Assembly: GCA_019119555.1 (NCBI GenBank)
Contig: DWWU01000041.1
Span: 1 to 64,000 of the forward strand
Direction of reading: 5' to 3'
Source: Candidatus Fusicatenibacter intestinigallinarum
GTDB lineage: Bacteria; Bacillota; Clostridia; Lachnospirales; Lachnospiraceae
DNA: 64,000 nt
A model generated the notes under the pieces. It did no database searches, was not told where the DNA came from, and worked only from the letters and a program-made list of their open reading frames with translations. Made by a program: the position numbers and the translations under genes. Each line of letters opens with the position of its first letter. The first letter of the stretch is position 1. Of the stretch, positions 55,454-63,528 are shown piece by piece.

Positions 55454-56659
55454 ATGCAGACAGGTCTGGAAGATGCCTATCTTGTGAAAGACGGGAAAAA
55501 GCTTCGTCTTGGATACACAACAGGCTCCTGCGCCGCAGCGGCGGCGCAGGCGGCGGCCATATGTCTTCTGACCGGAAACAGACCGGACCGTGCGGAGCTG
55601 ATGACGCCGAAAGGAATTCAGCTTTGCCTTCCGGTCTGTTTTTTTCAGGAGACAGAATGTGAAGTGACTTTTGGTGTAAAGAAGGATGGAGGCGATGATC
55701 CGGATGCCACCCACGGGCTGTGGATTCTGGCGACGGTCAGCCGGCTGACAGAACCGGAAATTGTGATTGATGGCGGCAAAGGGGTTGGCCGTGTTACACG
55801 CTCGGGGTTGGATCAGCCTCCGGGCGCTGCCGCCATCAACCGGGTGCCCCGGGCGATGATCCGGGAGCAGGTGCTGAAAGTCATGCAGAAGGAAGGATAT
55901 CCGGGGGGAATCAGAGTTGTGATTTCTGTTCCGGAAGGAGAGGAGACAGCAAAGCGGACGTTTAATCCCCGGCTGGGCATTGTCGGAGGAATTTCGATTC
56001 TCGGTACCAGCGGGATTGTAATGCCCATGAGCGAGGAAGCGCTGATCGCGACGATCCGTGTGGAGATGGAAATGCGGCGGGCGTCCGGAAGCCGGTATCT
56101 GCTGATGGTACCCGGAAATTACGGGGAGGATTTTCTTTCCAGATATCCACAGGTTGACACGGAGCAGGCGGTGAAATGCAGCAATTATGTGGGCGCGGTT
56201 CTTGAGATGGCGGTGGAGATGGGGTTTGAGGGAATTCTGTTTGTCGCTCATATCGGGAAATTCATCAAAGTGTCCGGAGGGATTATGAATACCCACTCTC
56301 ATCAGGCGGACTGCCGTGCGGAACTGCTGGCGGCGCAGGCGCTGCGGCGTGGGGCGGATCCGGAAACCGTCCGGAGGATTCTGGCGACGGACACGACAGA
56401 GGAAGCGGTGGAGATTCTGGTCCATGCAGGCTGTCTGAGCGAGACTATGGAAGAGGTAATGGAACGGATTGTGTTTTATATGCAGCATCACACAGAGGGA
56501 CGCATCCGTACGGAGGCGATTGTTTTTTCCAGCTGGCATGGAGTGTTGGGAGAAAGCGCCGGGGCAGGGGAACTGATCAGACAGTTTCAGAAAAAGTCAA
56601 AAACCCCGCAGCAAGCTACGGGGCATCAAACTTGTCCAGGCGAAGAAGAAAAAGGGTGA
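55454..56659 (+). CDS. cbiD: Cobalt-precorrin-5B (C1)-methyltransferase
   Basis: LRLGYTTGSCAAAAAQAAA, GKGVGRVTRSGLDQPPGAAAINRVPRAMI, HIGKFIKVSGG. Confidence 0.94.
   Translation: MQTGLEDAYLVKDGKKLRLGYTTGSCAAAAAQAAAICLLTGNRPDRAELMTPKGIQLCLPVCFFQETECEVTFGVKKDGGDDPDATHGLWILATVSRLTEPEIVIDGGKGVGRVTRSGLDQPPGAAAINRVPRAMIREQVLKVMQKEGYPGGIRVVISVPEGEETAKRTFNPRLGIVGGISILGTSGIVMPMSEEALIATIRVEMEMRRASGSRYLLMVPGNYGEDFLSRYPQVDTEQAVKCSNYVGAVLEMAVEMGFEGILFVAHIGKFIKVSGGIMNTHSHQADCRAELLAAQALRRGADPETVRRILATDTTEEAVEILVHAGCLSETMEEVMERIVFYMQHHTEGRIRTEAIVFSSWHGVLGESAGAGELIRQFQKKSKTPQQATGHQTCPGEEEKG
56604..56623. repeat. Hairpin CCCCGCAGC-AA-GCTACGGGG inside the 3' end of cbiD, A-tract on its 5' side
   Basis: AAAAAGTCAAAAACCCCGCAGCAAGCTACGGGGC. 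Confidence 0.7.
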
Positions 56660-56669
56660 GCAGGGATGG

Positions 56670-57764
56670 ATGAGGTGTATTTTCAGAGTGAAGGTGTATT
56701 TTCAGAGTGAGTTTCAGGGCGGAGAAAAGCCGGGAGAACAGGGAAAACCGGGCGTGAAGGTGATCGTCGGGAAGGAATTTTCCCGGGAAGGAAAGTACTG
56801 GAAGATTCCGGCTGTCTATTTGTTTGATGAAGGGATCGTGATGGATCTCTGCTGTCGGGTTGCTCCGGATGCACTGAAAAAATATTACAGCGAACGAAAA
56901 CGGTTTTCCAGGCAGGGCTGGACGGATCCGGAAACCTTCGAATACTTCGAAGGAGAAAATCCCTGGCCGCGCAGTTACTGTGTCTGCCTGACAGTCAACG
57001 GAAAAGATCTTCGCCAGGAAGGTTCTTCGTCGGAAATCTGGATGCCGGAAAATACTGCCGGAGAGAAAGAAGCTGCCGCCGGACTGCAGGATTGTGAAAT
57101 CCGGAGGATTCTGGACGCGTATCAGTGTGACAGAGAATATGCATGGTATTTCAGCCGCTGCCGCTTTCGGTGGGCAGAAGGGGAAGCAGGAGAAACACCG
57201 GAGACGCTGCGCACAGTGACGGCAGAATTTGCGGCGGAACCACGGAAGGTTCCAGGATTCTGTTTTGTCACCAGAGAAGGTGAAGCGCCGAAATGTATTC
57301 CGTTTCACTGTCCTCTGAATGGAGAGGAAGGTGTGCTGAAGATCCGGGAATGCTTTTCCCGGAAACTGGATGAGGAAGTTTTTCGCGGGATTCCGTCGCT
57401 GCGGAAAAGAGCAGGCGGACAGGAACCGGAAACTGCGGATGTGGAATTTCCTTTGTACCAGACGGTGATATCCTGGAATACGGAACCGGAAGGGCTGCGC
57501 TCAGTCTGTTCGGTCACCGACTGCTGTCCTTCGGGCGGTCACCCGAGGAGAAAGAGAAAAGAAGACAGCGGACAGAAAACGGACCGCGGAACCACGGAAG
57601 TGATCGGCGCCAGCGCTGTCTGTGTATCCTATTCAGGAGGGGAGAACAGAGAAACCTCCTGGTCCGCTTCCGCTCTGACATTCGAAAAGCAGGCGGAGAC
57701 AAGATGGCAGGCAGATTTTTTTTGTGATGACGGGGACCATCTGCTGGTCGAAGTAATAAAGTAA
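56670..57764 (+). CDS. Uncharacterised protein; start codon context altered by a 19-bp tandem duplication
   Basis: 364-aa ORF following cbiD; no family recognised by eye. Confidence 0.7.
   Translation: MRCIFRVKVYFQSEFQGGEKPGEQGKPGVKVIVGKEFSREGKYWKIPAVYLFDEGIVMDLCCRVAPDALKKYYSERKRFSRQGWTDPETFEYFEGENPWPRSYCVCLTVNGKDLRQEGSSSEIWMPENTAGEKEAAAGLQDCEIRRILDAYQCDREYAWYFSRCRFRWAEGEAGETPETLRTVTAEFAAEPRKVPGFCFVTREGEAPKCIPFHCPLNGEEGVLKIRECFSRKLDEEVFRGIPSLRKRAGGQEPETADVEFPLYQTVISWNTEPEGLRSVCSVTDCCPSGGHPRRKRKEDSGQKTDRGTTEVIGASAVCVSYSGGENRETSWSASALTFEKQAETRWQADFFCDDGDHLLVEVIK
56673..56710 (+). repeat. Perfect 19-bp tandem duplication (AGGTGTATTTTCAGAGTGA x2)
   Basis: 56673-56691 and 56692-56710 are identical. 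Confidence 0.95.
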
Positions 57765-57769
57765 TCCTA

Positions 57770-57824
57770 TGCGCTGCGGCGTGACAGTTTATCAGGCTGT
57801 GTACGCCGCGGCGCATTTTTTGGC
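57770..57824 (+). terminator. Intrinsic terminator
   Basis: ATGCGCTGCGGCGT...ACGCCGCGGCGCATTTTTTGG. Confidence 0.8.
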
Positions 57825-57833
57825 GAATACTCT

Positions 57834-57890
57834 TGACATATATCTTCTACAAATGTAATATGTAATTGTACTACATAAGTAGAAAAGGAG
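57834..57890 (+). promoter_or_regulatory. Promoter (TTGACA...TAATAT) overlapped by BlaI/MecI-type operator motifs
   Basis: TTGACATATATCTTCTACAAATGTAATATG...TACTACATAAGTAGA; TACA-AA-TGTA dyad and CTAC-ATAA-GTAG dyad. Confidence 0.65.
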
Positions 57891-57898
57891 GAGGTATC

Positions 57899-58285
57899 AT
57901 GCGGAGGAAAATTCAGAAATTGCCTGATTCCGAACTGGACGTGATGATTGCCTTATGGAACGGACACGGGGAAATGACCAGAAGCGAGATCGAGGACTTT
58001 ATGAAGCGGAAAAAGAAACTGGCTCCGACAACGATCCTCACACTTCTTTCACGTCTGGAGAAGAAAAAATTTGTTTCCGTAAAAAAGGAAGGAAAAGCAA
58101 ATCTTTACCGTGCGCTTGTCACGCAGGAACAGTATCAGCAGCAGGAAGGGAAACATGTACTGGAAAAGCTGTATGGCAACTCGCTGAAAAATTTTGTGGC
58201 GACTCTGTATCAGGGGAAGCAGATCGACCAGAGTGACATTGAAGAACTGGAAGCTTTTCTGCAGGAATTAGAGAAAGACCAGTAA
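57899..58285 (+). CDS. BlaI/MecI/CopY family transcriptional regulator
   Basis: LPDSELDVMIALWNGHGEMTRSEIEDFMKRKKKLAPTTILTLLSRLEKKKFVSVKKEGKANLYRALV. Confidence 0.94.
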   Translation: MRRKIQKLPDSELDVMIALWNGHGEMTRSEIEDFMKRKKKLAPTTILTLLSRLEKKKFVSVKKEGKANLYRALVTQEQYQQQEGKHVLEKLYGNSLKNFVATLYQGKQIDQSDIEELEAFLQELEKDQ

Positions 58286-58309
58286 CAGTTCAGACGGCGG
58301 AACTGTTGC
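58282..58309. repeat. Family-1 palindrome whose first TAA is the blaI-like stop codon
   Basis: GTAACAGTTCAGACGGCGGAACTGTTGC. Confidence 0.75.
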
Positions 58310-58352
58310 AAAGACGACAGTCTGTGATGCAGCAGGAAAACGGAGGGGTATT

Positions 58353-59468
58353 ATGAGAGAAGGAAAAAGAAAGAAAAAGAGACCATTTGTCTGGATGCTG
58401 TGGCTTATGATTTTCAGCGTTGGGATCTGGGGACTGACGGCCTGTTCCGGAAAAAAAGAGGATGAAAAGCCTGCTTCTGCGGAGAGTAAAAATGCTTCTG
58501 TGACAGGGGACAGCGGGGGAGAACAGGAAACGGCGCAGACATCGTCAGAGACGGAAACGGTAGGAGAATCGGACCGGCAGCAGTCGGATTCCGGTCATGA
58601 TTCTGTGCCTGAGACAGAGGAACCGGATGCGGCGCAGCAGGAGAATCCAGATGCGGGCAATACGGTTTCTATTGAAAACTATATTGTGAACGGTGAATGG
58701 AAAAAGCTGAAGGACGTTCTGAATATGCAGCCGACAGAATCCGGACAGTTCGGAGAAACAGGGGAAGCCTTTGAGACAGGGGGATTTTATATCACATGGA
58801 CCAACGATATGACAGAGGATGACGGGGCGTTTACGATGATAAACAGTGGGAATTCTTCTGTAAATATTTATGGCGTAACGGTAGGTGACGGGATTGGAAC
58901 AGCGGATTCTGCGTTTGAGGAAAATGGCTGGACGGCACTGGATGATGGCCGGCAGTATATTGCTGTTCTGAACGGAAGAAATCTGGCGATTGACTTTGAC
59001 CTGGATGAGAATCAGGTGATCACAGGCTGGTATCTTTGCAACTGGCCGGAAGGCGATTTTTCTGAAAATTTTGAAGGGCTTGAGAATCAGCAGATCAACG
59101 GAGTTCCCGCAAAGGTAAATGTATATGAAGGCGAATACAGATATGATCTTGCACGTACAGGCCTTCCGATCACCGAGTATTATACGGTAATCGTGGAAAA
59201 TGTAACGGAGGATTCCTTTGATTTCACCATTTATTATGTGGATGATCTGGCGGAAACCAGGGATGTTGTTTTCCGGACGCATACGGCGGTTTTTGAGGGG
59301 GACGGAACGTATGCGAAATATCATGGGCAGGAGTATGAACTGGAATTTACGTTCCCGGATAAGCGGAACACCTATCCGGATGCGGTGGACATGCAGATTA
59401 CAGGATATGAGCCTGTCGAAGGCCTGACCTTCTGCAACAATGCGATACCGGGTCATGAATTCAGCTGA
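58353..59468 (+). CDS. Lipoprotein sharing an extracellular module with the downstream M56 sensor
   Basis: WMLWLMIFSVGIWGLTACSGKK lipobox; acidic linker; ...VNIYGVTVG...QVITGWYLCNWPEGDF... Confidence 0.8.
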   Translation: MREGKRKKKRPFVWMLWLMIFSVGIWGLTACSGKKEDEKPASAESKNASVTGDSGGEQETAQTSSETETVGESDRQQSDSGHDSVPETEEPDAAQQENPDAGNTVSIENYIVNGEWKKLKDVLNMQPTESGQFGETGEAFETGGFYITWTNDMTEDDGAFTMINSGNSSVNIYGVTVGDGIGTADSAFEENGWTALDDGRQYIAVLNGRNLAIDFDLDENQVITGWYLCNWPEGDFSENFEGLENQQINGVPAKVNVYEGEYRYDLARTGLPITEYYTVIVENVTEDSFDFTIYYVDDLAETRDVVFRTHTAVFEGDGTYAKYHGQEYELEFTFPDKRNTYPDAVDMQITGYEPVEGLTFCNNAIPGHEFS

Positions 59469-59504
59469 ACCGGCAGATTTCGTCGAACGAAAAGGAGGGG
59501 TGGT

Positions 59505-61430
59505 ATGGCGGATATTCTGTTATATGTATTGAAGATCAATCTGGCGGCTGCGGCTGTGATTTTTCTGACCGCGGTGCTGTCGAGGCATCTGGCCGGGAGA
59601 TATTCGGTTCGCTGGAAATACCGGATCTGGCTGGCGCTGGCGATTCTTCTGCTTCTTCCGGTACAGATTCCGGAAACCTGGAATATCGTACATGTAAATA
59701 TTCCGGCAGCTTTCACCGTGAGAACAGATCAGCTCCGGACTGCCCGGGAGACAGATACAGGGAATGACAGGACAATCGCAGAGACAGATGGGACAGGGCA
59801 GACGGGCCTGCCCTGGTCCGGCGCCGGGAACACTTCTCAGGAGATTCTTTCTCAGTCTTCGCCAGACCTCCAGAACACCGGGAATCTCGTGGCGCCTGCC
59901 GGCGACGTTCAGTGGATTTCAATGGAAACGGCAGCTGACCTTGCGGCGGCTGTGTGGGCGGCCGGAGTGCTGTTCCTGGGAATCAGAAAAACGGTGGAGA
60001 CATATCTGGCAGGAAAAGCGCTGCGCCGATGGAATCTGCCGAACTGGAACCAGCCGCTGGAACGGACGTATCGGAAGATATGCGGAAGCATGAAACTGAA
60101 GCGGACGCCGCGGCTGATGCTGAACAGCCGGCTGACGACGCCTCTGCTTATGGGATTTCTGCATCCGTGTATCTGCATCCCCCAGATCGGATATACGCCG
60201 GAGGAACAGGAACTGATTCTGTTCCATGAACTCTGCCATTACCAAAGAAAAGATCTGTGGTATAAACTTTTGCTGAACATTCTGTGCATTGTGCATTGGT
60301 TTAATCCGGCGCTTTGGTGGATGAAAAAGGAAGCGGACAGAGACCTTGAGTTTCTCTGCGATGAATCAGTGATGGAACGACGCGCTGTACAGGAGAGAAT
60401 GCTGTACAATCGTCTGCTTGCAAAAACAGCCGCAGGGAAAACTTCTGCGCCGGGAATCACGACCGGGTTCAGCGACAGCCTGCGGAATCTGAAAAAGCGG
60501 ATGGCAAACATTATGCGTGCCGGAACAATGAAAAAGGGAAATGTGGTCACCGCGTGTTTTCTGGCATTGTTTGTGCTCTGCAACGCGCTGACGGGATGTT
60601 CTGTTGCGGACAGCTCCGGTTCTTCTCCGGCAGCTGACGGAAAGAAAACAGAGGCGGATTCCGGGCAGGAGCCTGCCGGCCGCCAGATCCCGGACACACA
60701 GGAGGATCAACGGCAGCTTTTGGATACCGTGCCGCTGGATCCGCAGGATGGGGAAAATCGCGGCGTATCCTCCGAAGAAGCAGAACCGCAGGGGCAGGAG
60801 AACGGAGACAGTGGTTCATCTTCAGAAACTCAGGAGGACGACGGATCAGACGTTCAGGCTCCGGCTGACACCCAGCCACCTGCCCGGACGCCATCCGTAC
60901 AGCCGACACAGACGCCCGGGGAACCGGCGGACATGCCGCAGGAAGATCCTTCTCCGACGGACAGCCCCCAGGAATCGGCACCGTCTCCCCCGGAAATTGA
61001 GCTGACCGATTATGTGCATGATAATCTGGTGCAGGAATTTGCGGAAGATATGGGGATGGAACAGGTTTCCGGACAGATGTTCGGGGAGAACGGATATCGG
61101 TATGAAAACTCTTATGCGGGCATTGAATGGCAATATGTGGATGAAACGATTTATGGCGGGGAGGATTTCGACAGCAAATATAATTACATCGGTTCTGTAT
61201 GGTGCGAAGGAAACACAGAGATCAGCGTGTACGGCGTTGCCTGCGGAATGAATATGGACGAAGTACGGGAAAACATGCAGGCAGACGGATGGAAAGTTCT
61301 TGGAGCGCATCAGAATGCTTTCCTGCTGGATGAGAATTCCGGATATGACCGGGAGTATGTCCAGTTTGAGACAGACGGCACGACAATTACCCAATGGTAC
61401 TGGTGCAACTGGCCGGAGGGGGATCTGTAA
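59505..61430 (+). CDS. M56 family (BlaR1/MecR1-like) sensor metallopeptidase with lipoprotein-like C-terminal extracellular domain
   Basis: LILFHELCHYQRKDLWYKLLLNILCIVHWFNPALWWM (HExxH), DLEFLCDESVMERR; LCNALTGCSVADSS after the last TM; C-term ISVYGVACG...TITQWYWCNWPEGDL. Confidence 0.92.
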   Translation: MADILLYVLKINLAAAAVIFLTAVLSRHLAGRYSVRWKYRIWLALAILLLLPVQIPETWNIVHVNIPAAFTVRTDQLRTARETDTGNDRTIAETDGTGQTGLPWSGAGNTSQEILSQSSPDLQNTGNLVAPAGDVQWISMETAADLAAAVWAAGVLFLGIRKTVETYLAGKALRRWNLPNWNQPLERTYRKICGSMKLKRTPRLMLNSRLTTPLLMGFLHPCICIPQIGYTPEEQELILFHELCHYQRKDLWYKLLLNILCIVHWFNPALWWMKKEADRDLEFLCDESVMERRAVQERMLYNRLLAKTAAGKTSAPGITTGFSDSLRNLKKRMANIMRAGTMKKGNVVTACFLALFVLCNALTGCSVADSSGSSPAADGKKTEADSGQEPAGRQIPDTQEDQRQLLDTVPLDPQDGENRGVSSEEAEPQGQENGDSGSSSETQEDDGSDVQAPADTQPPARTPSVQPTQTPGEPADMPQEDPSPTDSPQESAPSPPEIELTDYVHDNLVQEFAEDMGMEQVSGQMFGENGYRYENSYAGIEWQYVDETIYGGEDFDSKYNYIGSVWCEGNTEISVYGVACGMNMDEVRENMQADGWKVLGAHQNAFLLDENSGYDREYVQFETDGTTITQWYWCNWPEGDL

Positions 61431-61453
61431 TAATCAAGGTTATAGTTCGGTCC

Positions 61454-61488
61454 GGTCTGTGCATTCACTGCACAGACCGTATGTAAAG
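61454..61488 (+). repeat. Family-2 hairpin
   Basis: GGTCTGTGCA-TTCAC-TGCACAGACC-GTATGTAAAG. Confidence 0.85.
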
Positions 61489-61505
61489 AATAGAACCTGT
61501 AACCA

Positions 61506-61552
61506 TCAAGCGGCTTCGGAGATGTTTTATTACCTCCGGGCCGCTTGATTCA
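61506..61552 (+). terminator. Hairpin downstream of the M56 gene
   Basis: ATCAAGCGGCttCGGAG...CTCCGgGCCGCTTGAT; no clear T-tract. Confidence 0.5.
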
Positions 61553-61627
61553 TATTACCTATACAGGAGCCGGATCAGGAGGTATAATGCCAGTAAAGAT
61601 ATTTTTCGGATACGGAGGAGGATACAG

Positions 61628-62557
61628 ATGACAGAGATTGTATTCAGCGAGAGCGCTGAGGGCAGCCTGAAGTGGGCGCAGACATATGGAAAAGGCAAGT
61701 GGGCTCCATCATCGATCGGCATGATTGGCAGTAATCTTTCGGCAGCAGAGGCAGACGAGGCACTGCGTGAAGCGGAGCGAAGGGAACAGGCCTCCTGGGA
61801 GCAGGCGGTTCCGCTGGGAGGAAGTCCTGCAGACGTGTTTTCCTTTCCGCTTGTCCACAGCATCGGAGATATATCAGAAGAAGGGATCGGACAGAAGCGT
61901 CTGGAAACGCTGCAGAAGCTGTTTGGTTACAGCTCTGAAACAGAGGGCCACAAAACGGCAGAGCGAATCTGCCGAAATGCAGTCAGAGATTTTCAGACAG
62001 TCAGAACCCGTCTGACAGAAGGCGGGCAGGTACGGATCTGGTACAGTGATCAGCCGGATGAAATGTGCGGAATGTACTGGTTTCTCGCACAGCTGGAGCA
62101 GCAGCGGATGCCTGCCGGCAGGATTGTTCTTGTAAGTCCTGAAGACCGGAATTCTGAACTCTGTCATCTGGGCTGGGGTGCAGCGGAACCCGGGGAGTGG
62201 GGGAAGCATCTTTCTTCTCAGAAAAATATCAGCCAGGAGTTTCTCACCGACATTGCCTGCCGTTGGAAGAAACTTCAGGATGAGCGGGCGGCGCTGCGTG
62301 CAGTCGTCGACGGAAAGCTCTGCAGTGTACCGGAAGACTTTTATGATCCTTTCATACAGAAAGAACTGGATGCACAGGAAGAGATGTTCCCTGAAACTTC
62401 CCTGATGGGCTCCGTCCTCGCCAGACACCGGCTGGGAATCAGCAATGAATGGATTTTCCTGCGCATTCAGAAGATGGTAGAAAGCGGAAGGCTGTCAGTT
62501 GCGGCTGAGGCACCGGAGGATATGACGGCGTGTCATCGATGGTTGAAAAAAATGTGA
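61628..62557 (+). CDS. DUF1835 (and DUF3658-like) family protein
   Basis: MTEIVFSESAEGSLKWAQTYG...FPLVHSIGDISEEG...VRIWYSDQPDEMCGMYWFL; Trp/His-rich C-terminus. Confidence 0.75.
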   Translation: MTEIVFSESAEGSLKWAQTYGKGKWAPSSIGMIGSNLSAAEADEALREAERREQASWEQAVPLGGSPADVFSFPLVHSIGDISEEGIGQKRLETLQKLFGYSSETEGHKTAERICRNAVRDFQTVRTRLTEGGQVRIWYSDQPDEMCGMYWFLAQLEQQRMPAGRIVLVSPEDRNSELCHLGWGAAEPGEWGKHLSSQKNISQEFLTDIACRWKKLQDERAALRAVVDGKLCSVPEDFYDPFIQKELDAQEEMFPETSLMGSVLARHRLGISNEWIFLRIQKMVESGRLSVAAEAPEDMTACHRWLKKM

Positions 62558-62561
62558 ATTG

Positions 62562-62590
62562 TTGCATTTCTTTTTTTCGTATATTATAAT
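62562..62590 (+). promoter_or_regulatory. Promoter TTGCAT-N17-TATAAT for cbiL-cbiF
   Basis: Hexamers and spacing; about 250-nt leader. Confidence 0.65.
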
Positions 62591-62675
62591 GATGAGCGAA
62601 CTACATGTTCAGCAGCCGTTATCCGATGTCTGCAGTGCGGAGGAGAAGCAGACGCCGGTGGGCCTTCGGCCCATC

Positions 62676-62703
62676 GCGTAGCGATTTTCAATGGCCGGAT
62701 GCC
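62676..62703 (-). repeat. Family-5 element (reverse orientation)
   Basis: CGCGTAGCGATTTTCAATGGCCGGATGC. Confidence 0.65.
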
Positions 62704-62732
62704 ATAACAGTTCAGCCAGCTGAACTGTTACT
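62704..62732. repeat. Family-1 palindrome abutting the family-5 element
   Basis: ATAACAGTTCAGCCAGCTGAACTGTTACT. Confidence 0.85.
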
Positions 62733-62841
62733 ACGGTTACAGCGGCAAAGAACATGGAAAAAGAATAAGCGGAAAAAGAATTATAATAAACGGAGCAGGA
62801 CAGAAGCCTCGGTATCAGGCTTTGTCCGAAGAGGAGCAGAC

Positions 62842-63528
62842 ATGAAAAGAGGAACCTTATACGGAGTCGGAATCGGTCCGGGCGATCCGGAACTTCTGAC
62901 ACTGAAAGCAGTCCGTCGGATCCGGGAGGCGCAGGTGATCGCTCTGCCCGGAAAGGAAGCAAAGGAGACCGTTGCCTATCGGATTGCCGTCCAGGCGGTG
63001 CCGGAGCTGGAAAACAAGCATCTGCTGGCGGTGGCCATGCCGATGACGAAGGACAGGACAGAACTGGAGGAAAACCACAAAAAAGCGGCCAAAGCAGTGG
63101 AGCAGGAACTGGACCAGGGAAAGGACGTTGCATTTCTGACCCTTGGAGATCCGACGGTTTATTCCACGTATCTGTATGTCCACAAACGCGTACAGGAGGA
63201 CGGATACGAAGCGAAAATTGTCAGCGGCGTCACTTCCTTCTGTGCGGCTGCGGCGGAACTGGAAATCGGACTTGTGGAAAACTCTCAGCAGCTTCATGTG
63301 ATTCCGGCGTCTTATCAGATTGAGGATGCGCTGAAGCTTCCGGGAACGAAAGTTCTGATGAAGGCCGGACGTAAGATGGAGCAGGTCAAAGAACTTCTGG
63401 AACAGATGGACGCGGAAGTCCTGATGGTGGAAAACTGTGGGATGGAAGGTCAGCGGATCTGCCGCGGAGCGGAGGAGATTCCCGAATCTGCAGGCTATTA
63501 TTCACTGATCGTGGTAAAGGAGAAATAA
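62842..63528 (+). CDS. cbiL: Precorrin-2/cobalt-factor II C20-methyltransferase
   Basis: GTLYGVGIGPGDPELLTLKAVRRIREAQVIALPG, FLTLGDPTVYSTYLYVH. Confidence 0.92.
   Translation: MKRGTLYGVGIGPGDPELLTLKAVRRIREAQVIALPGKEAKETVAYRIAVQAVPELENKHLLAVAMPMTKDRTELEENHKKAAKAVEQELDQGKDVAFLTLGDPTVYSTYLYVHKRVQEDGYEAKIVSGVTSFCAAAAELEIGLVENSQQLHVIPASYQIEDALKLPGTKVLMKAGRKMEQVKELLEQMDAEVLMVENCGMEGQRICRGAEEIPESAGYYSLIVVKEK

Follow-up and report, generated by a model that had tools for sequence, protein, structure and literature searches.

BlaR1/BlaI is a switch that detects penicillin in Staphylococcus. In the present study, a blaI gene, a lipoprotein gene and a gene for an M56 zinc protease from Candidatus Fusicatenibacter intestinigallinarum (Lachnospiraceae) were compared with this switch and its relatives; they lie together in a stretch of 64,000 nucleotides (contig DWWU01000041.1, positions 1 to 64,000), called the window here. 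The locus resembles BlaR1/BlaI and MecR1/MecI of Staphylococcus aureus in having a BlaI-family repressor with an apparently autoregulated operon, and BlaR1 and MecR1 in having an M56 gluzincin with the HExxH motif and an extracellular domain at the C-terminus, after the last membrane helix. BlaR1 is further matched by a signal-peptidase site at the aligned position and by a phenylalanine in the autocleavage loop. Unlike in BlaR1 and MecR1, the ectodomain is a module, termed A, in place of a penicillin-binding protein (PBP) or class-D-like domain, and the operon carries a lipoprotein that shares this module, without a beta-lactamase or PBP2a target. The window sensor also differs from BlaR1 in a cysteine at the processing site (a lipobox), and the window BlaI has T|L as its cleavage residues. 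PetR/PetP, the copper switch of Synechocystis, combines a BlaI-family regulator with a BlaR1-family protease and has photosynthetic targets (PMC7896320). The window operon appears to resemble it as a BlaI/BlaR1-type pair serving a cue other than beta-lactams; the signal of PetR/PetP is copper, unlike that proposed here, and a module-sharing lipoprotein is not mentioned in PMC7896320. The operon is thus a real, unusual form of the BlaR1/BlaI-type switch and not a separate kind, its unusual traits being the module-sharing lipoprotein, a probable swap of sensor module B for A, a predicted surface regulon and a lipobox at the BlaR1 shedding site. An earlier note, made from the DNA alone, had seen here a good candidate for an undescribed signalling system; a non-beta-lactam pair of this type is already on record with PetR/PetP (PMC7896320). 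A search of the open-access literature returned no paper on this operon or on M56 proteins in Lachnospiraceae, an absence that is weak evidence.

The three genes are all on the + strand and, as read from the sequence, form one operon with the following features.

57833 to 57861, + strand: operon promoter, with -35 TTGACA (57833-57838), a 17-nt spacer and -10 TAATAT (57856-57861); read directly, its layout recurs in relatives
57847 to 57882, + strand: double BlaI-type operator, CTACAAATGTA (57847-57857) and CTACATAAGTAG (57871-57882), overlapping the -10 and the leader
57899 to 58285, + strand: blaI, winged-helix repressor of 128 aa (Penicillinase_R, PF03965, 2.2e-30)
58353 to 59468, + strand: lipoprotein of 371 aa, with a signal peptide and lipobox LTAC, an acidic linker, module A (residues ~103-236) and module B (residues ~245-371)
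58659 to 59060, + strand: module A of the lipoprotein (A1 profile, E 1.4e-58)
59085 to 59465, + strand: lipoprotein module B, which in relatives forms the ectodomain of sister M56 sensors
59505 to 61430, + strand: M56 zinc protease/sensor of 641 aa with a HELCH motif (Peptidase_M56, PF05569, 2e-41, residues 7-336)
60585 to 60599, + strand: lipobox-like ALTGC (residues 361-365), where the last M56 membrane helix ends on the outer side
60987 to 61427, + strand: module A of the M56 ectodomain (A1 profile, E 6.6e-55)

The triad of BlaI, lipoprotein and M56 protease given in the earlier note was confirmed by the two family matches (Penicillinase_R 2e-30, Peptidase_M56 2e-41) with the lipoprotein between them. 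The interval assigned to it, 57834-61430, begins on the -35 box and so includes the promoter, the ATG of BlaI being at 57899.

The lipoprotein (N-terminus MREGKRKKK...GLTAC) has an N-terminal signal with a lipobox, and no Pfam family was matched in a Pfam scan. The sharing of a module between it and the M56 ectodomain, as the earlier note had stated, was supported by BLASTP (E 2e-12, partly through the low-complexity linker) over about 130 residues, and the alignment has invariant columns Y-G, G-W and W-Y-x-C-N-W-P-E-G-D. It was likewise correct that the peptidase ends at the module, since its C-terminus CNWPEGDL is made of the last residues of module A, and that the lipoprotein continues, by about 135 residues. 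This part is not a mere continuation but a second sensor module. When relatives were searched with the lipoprotein, the M56 proteins L006, L009, L010 and L013 matched just its second half, and their ectodomain is module B; the identity of the lipoprotein's module B is 55-57% to M56 ectodomains of the genus and 43% to L006. Because sister M56 sensors have module B as their ectodomain, the lipoprotein holds both sensor modules of the M56 clade; by these sequence comparisons, it unites exactly the two ectodomain types (A and B) of one clade.

Both modules are rare, A being found in 10 and B in 7 of the 298 sampled genera of the family. Module A was also found in lipoproteins standing alone, in SLH and DUF4214 proteins and in one subtilase (subtilase/fn3). 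Module B is also C-terminal in one zinc-ribbon/YARHG protein (L059) and two LprI proteins (L062, L063); these Lachnospiraceae surface proteins (LprI, PF07007; YARHG, PF13308) likewise carry it, but unlike the window lipoprotein have no linkage to blaI or M56. No relatives of either module were found in viral contigs. At one further locus (L048:4764-7286), three small lipoproteins in a row have modules B, B and A, and neither blaI nor M56 is present.

Both modules of the lipoprotein are under purifying selection, with a nonsynonymous to synonymous rate ratio (dN/dS) of 0.04-0.12 between species, where some synonymous distances are saturated. A BlaI gene lies within 3 kb upstream of 90 of the 107 surveyed M56 genes. 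Among these 90, a lipoprotein gene stands between blaI and M56 solely in the four genomes of the genus with an A-type sensor, in 4/4 of them, which upholds the expected synteny. The expectation that the modules share a fold also held: the AlphaFold model of the M56 module A (mean predicted local distance difference score, pLDDT, 81.8; predicted template modelling score 0.79) and that of the lipoprotein module A (block mean pLDDT mostly 60-90) agree in the sequence of their helices and strands, the comparison being by order and the alignments sharing rows. By sequence, modules A and B had no credible relative in the PDB. Weak leads for module A were BLIP-I and YjgB (DUF4309), with Foldseek E of 0.8-0.9 and probability of 0.2-0.3; these are leads and not membership.

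The earlier note had called the module duplicated, and this wording is misleading. A local duplication was rejected when lipoprotein-A and M56-A were forced into one clade (approximately unbiased test, p 0.001; the A group put to the test was fixed by the finding in advance of the tree, and the trees have long branches), because each A copy stands closer to other copies in the family that are secreted or on lipoproteins. An appealing idea, that the lipoprotein arose from the 3' portion of an M56 gene (MREGKRKKK...LTAC against MRAGKLKKG...LTGC), is not claimed; the match is short and of low complexity (second BLASTP segment, E 0.019). A single clade (99%) unites the M56 cores of the A-type and B-type sensors. 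Since the B-type of another genus is outermost in it, B is probably the older ectodomain and A its replacement, so that the sensor apparently swapped B for A.

The M56 core is of the BlaR1 type. It aligned with S. aureus BlaR1 (8exp) at E 1.2e-6 and 30 bits overall by phmmer, with HELCH on HEYAH of BlaR1, an M56 core with HExxH as in BlaR1 and MecR1 sensors, and with TTG|F on the autocleavage-loop phenylalanine (S283|F284). As the earlier note had said, there is no penicillin-binding domain: Pfam found no transpeptidase or PBP domain (PF00905) in the M56 protein, and no SxxK or K[TS]G motif is present in the ectodomain, while true BlaR1 proteins of the same family were readily detected by the same Pfam and motif tests. 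The NCBIfam model blaR1_generic gave 93.1 bits against a cut-off of 400. The PBP motif set was present in about 17 of the 104 surveyed M56 proteins of the family, and Pfam confirmed it in 6/6 of those scanned. One other M56 sensor of the family (L168:2983-5535) has an ectodomain of RCC1-like repeats.

The repressor matched solved MecI/BlaI structures at E 1.5e-11 to 6e-11, and it joins the winged-helix Penicillinase_R fold to a TACA/TGTA-type operator over its own promoter, as in the BlaI family. We are highly confident that this is an autoregulated BlaI-M56 operon. The two operator boxes are 24 bp apart, start to start, and are conserved in three relatives of the genus (G002, G003, G005). In the window genome, the strict two-box pattern occurs solely here and before a second BlaI-M56 pair on contig C43, with none in the reversed control. 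The ectodomain of this second pair (G000:C43:10749-12095; L079, L221) is unrelated, and the step in the pair's own double operator is 27 bp as against 24 bp. When the full promoter-operator pattern was searched with at most 3 mismatches, 12 sites were found in the genus and none with the reversed-pattern controls. They precede the 4 triads, 1 BlaI-M56-B operon, 2 M56-B genes without blaI (G003), another BlaI-M56 pair (3 sites) and genes for choline-binding/Big_2 proteins (2 sites), the last being secreted proteins in G002 and G005. All the sites with the 24-bp spacing are in the four triad genomes, and none is in G001, G004 or G006, where the triad is absent. No beta-lactamase or PBP genes were among the operator sites in the genus, and the single full palindrome TCTACANNTGTAGA had no site there. 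In a looser operator search with two mismatches the reversed control was uninformative, since that control hits common sequence. The operator is thus predicted to act on sensor genes and on that of a cell-surface protein, and a surface regulon in the genus is likely. The M56-B sensors at L065:3973-9795 and L064:3708-7598 adjoin an endolysin-like (ELLD) protein with peptidoglycan- and choline-binding repeats, and L065 has two tandem M56-B genes with operators and no blaI.

The last membrane helix of the sensor ends in a lipobox-like motif. In A/B-type M56 proteins this helix ends L/M-x-G-C-S/T in 8/8 cases (7/7 counted and a G005 fragment), while 7 of 97 other surveyed M56 proteins passed a loose rule for it, some of them with motifs that are clearly no lipoboxes. 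In the 30-bit phmmer alignment, LTG|CS of the window M56 sits on LMG|QS of BlaR1, and it is at Gly331|Gln332 that the signal peptidase SpsB cuts S. aureus BlaR1, by which the sensor is shed (PMC9834060). A cysteine at this position may convert shedding into lipid anchoring of the ectodomain, and it suggests that the BlaR1 shedding site can evolve into a lipid anchor. Processing at this internal lipobox is a tentative proposal, which we consider somewhat doubtful. If it takes place, type II signal peptidase would cut the sensor at L-x-G|C after the last helix, and the domain would stay lipid-anchored and not be shed as in S. aureus. A wider and rather speculative version is that, in this BlaR1-like M56 clade, a type-I site turned into a lipobox, LspA cuts the receptor to leave a protease in the membrane and a sensor held by a lipid anchor, the double-module lipoprotein competes or pairs with this receptor, and the whole is a modular receptor/co-receptor switch for cell-surface remodelling; we think this improbable as a complete account.

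Taken together, the operon can be read as a regulated-proteolysis switch of the BlaR1/BlaI type in which the outside sensor has been replaced, the cue comes from the envelope and the lipoprotein is an autoregulated co-receptor or feedback competitor; our confidence in this whole reading is evenly divided. BlaI would repress the operon through the double operator. An extracellular cue, presumably an envelope or wall feature, would be bound by the A (or B) modules and activate the M56 protease, which would then cleave BlaI; cleavage of BlaI upon an outside cue is proposed because of the families to which the proteins belong (BlaR1, PMC9834060; PetP/PetR, PMC7896320). Loss of BlaI would allow expression of the operon and, in relatives, of cell-surface proteins. 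Encoded in this operon and equipped with both sensor modules, the lipoprotein may be a co-receptor or may compete for the same envelope ligand as a negative feedback, and a role in sensing is, in our estimate, an even matter. The suggestion of the earlier note that the inducing signal is probably not a beta-lactam and that the lipoprotein may be a co-receptor or decoy fits the evidence and is partly supported. Our degrees of confidence in the operon, the regulon, the sensing role of the lipoprotein and the processing at the lipobox are judgements and were not computed.

Several observations weigh against this reading. Non-PBP M56 sensors are common in the family (about 87 of 104 by motif), and because most of those surveyed are of this kind, the missing PBP domain alone is ordinary. 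The BlaI residues aligned with the N|F cleavage site of S. aureus are T|L; this mismatch bears on the cleavage step only, as membership of the family rests on the DNA-binding fold. In the window's own genome, which is 76% complete, the sole other operator precedes a BlaI-M56 pair, and the surface regulon is seen just in relatives. Conservation of the lipobox inside one clade is no independent evidence of processing. Module B was predicted poorly by AlphaFold from four relatives, and Foldseek of both models against the PDB gave nothing at E <= 0.001. The G002 lipoprotein has lost its signal peptide and linker by a deletion of about 300 bp (L018:660-760), with A and B still open, and that of G003 has had its last ~11 residues lost or replaced through an insertion (L019:2160-2370); being damaged in 2/4 genomes, the lipoprotein is therefore dispensable. 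The G003 insertion contains the palindrome GGTCTGTGCAGTAAATTGCACAGACC, and a similar palindrome lies 3' of the window M56 gene at about 61454-61478.

This damage would also suit a lipoprotein that is a passenger, a surface module that was inserted between the blaI and M56 genes and takes no part in signalling, its resemblance to the sensor being due to the recurrence of A and B in secreted proteins of the family. The lipoprotein and sensor copies of A are not sisters, and both modules occur in many unrelated secreted proteins, as this explanation would have it. However, the modules are rare, yet the lipoprotein joins exactly the two of this M56 clade; it is under strong purifying selection, and its placement is kept in each of the four triads and found nowhere else among the 90 BlaI-linked M56 genes, so that we find a passenger quite unlikely. 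An effector role is also unlikely in our view. The lipoprotein, as the operon's sole non-regulatory gene, would then take the place of BlaZ or PBP2a and act like an inhibitor or immunity protein as a surface protein that neutralises the sensed agent, such as a wall hydrolase or an enzyme resembling lysozyme. In L062 and L063, module B immediately follows LprI (lysozyme inhibitor) domains, but these two proteins, from other genera, are the sole cases of the linkage; BLIP-I and DUF4309 as fold leads point the same way but are far below significance. The endolysin-like/choline-binding protein next to the M56-B genes of G002 and G003 would suit an effector too, while the presence of A and B in SLH, DUF4214, subtilase/fn3 and YARHG proteins points to a generic role at the surface or in wall binding.

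An ordinary beta-lactam resistance switch with an unrecognised PBP-like sensor would agree with the BlaR1-type BlaI and M56 core. This is very improbable, since the ectodomain is without PF00905, SxxK and K[TS]G while true BlaR1 proteins of the family were found by the same tests, and the operator sites include no beta-lactamase or PBP.

BlaR1 is known almost solely as a penicillin detector, and most surveyed M56 sensors of this gut family have other ectodomains. The operon described here is a handle on them, with defined sensor modules, a partner lipoprotein of the same modules, a promoter-operator that would read the state of the switch and few predicted targets, and what non-PBP M56 receptors sense becomes testable through it.

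The block orf364-blaI-lipoprotein-M56-DUF1835 splits a cobalamin operon between cbiD and cobI (window 55454-63528; L239-L241). Three congeners, G001, G004 and G006, have cbiD directly adjoining cobI, and because the pair is unbroken there, the block is taken to have been inserted into the cobalamin operon. In the window and G005, cbiD is followed by orf364-blaI-lipoprotein-M56, and in G002 and G003 the cbiD side is hidden by contig ends. A functional link to cobalamin was rejected, no riboswitch being present at 36-64 kb, and the site is read as an insertion spot. In another genus (L056:3276-6273), the same cobalamin genes have as neighbours two secreted fn3-like proteins that weakly match module A.

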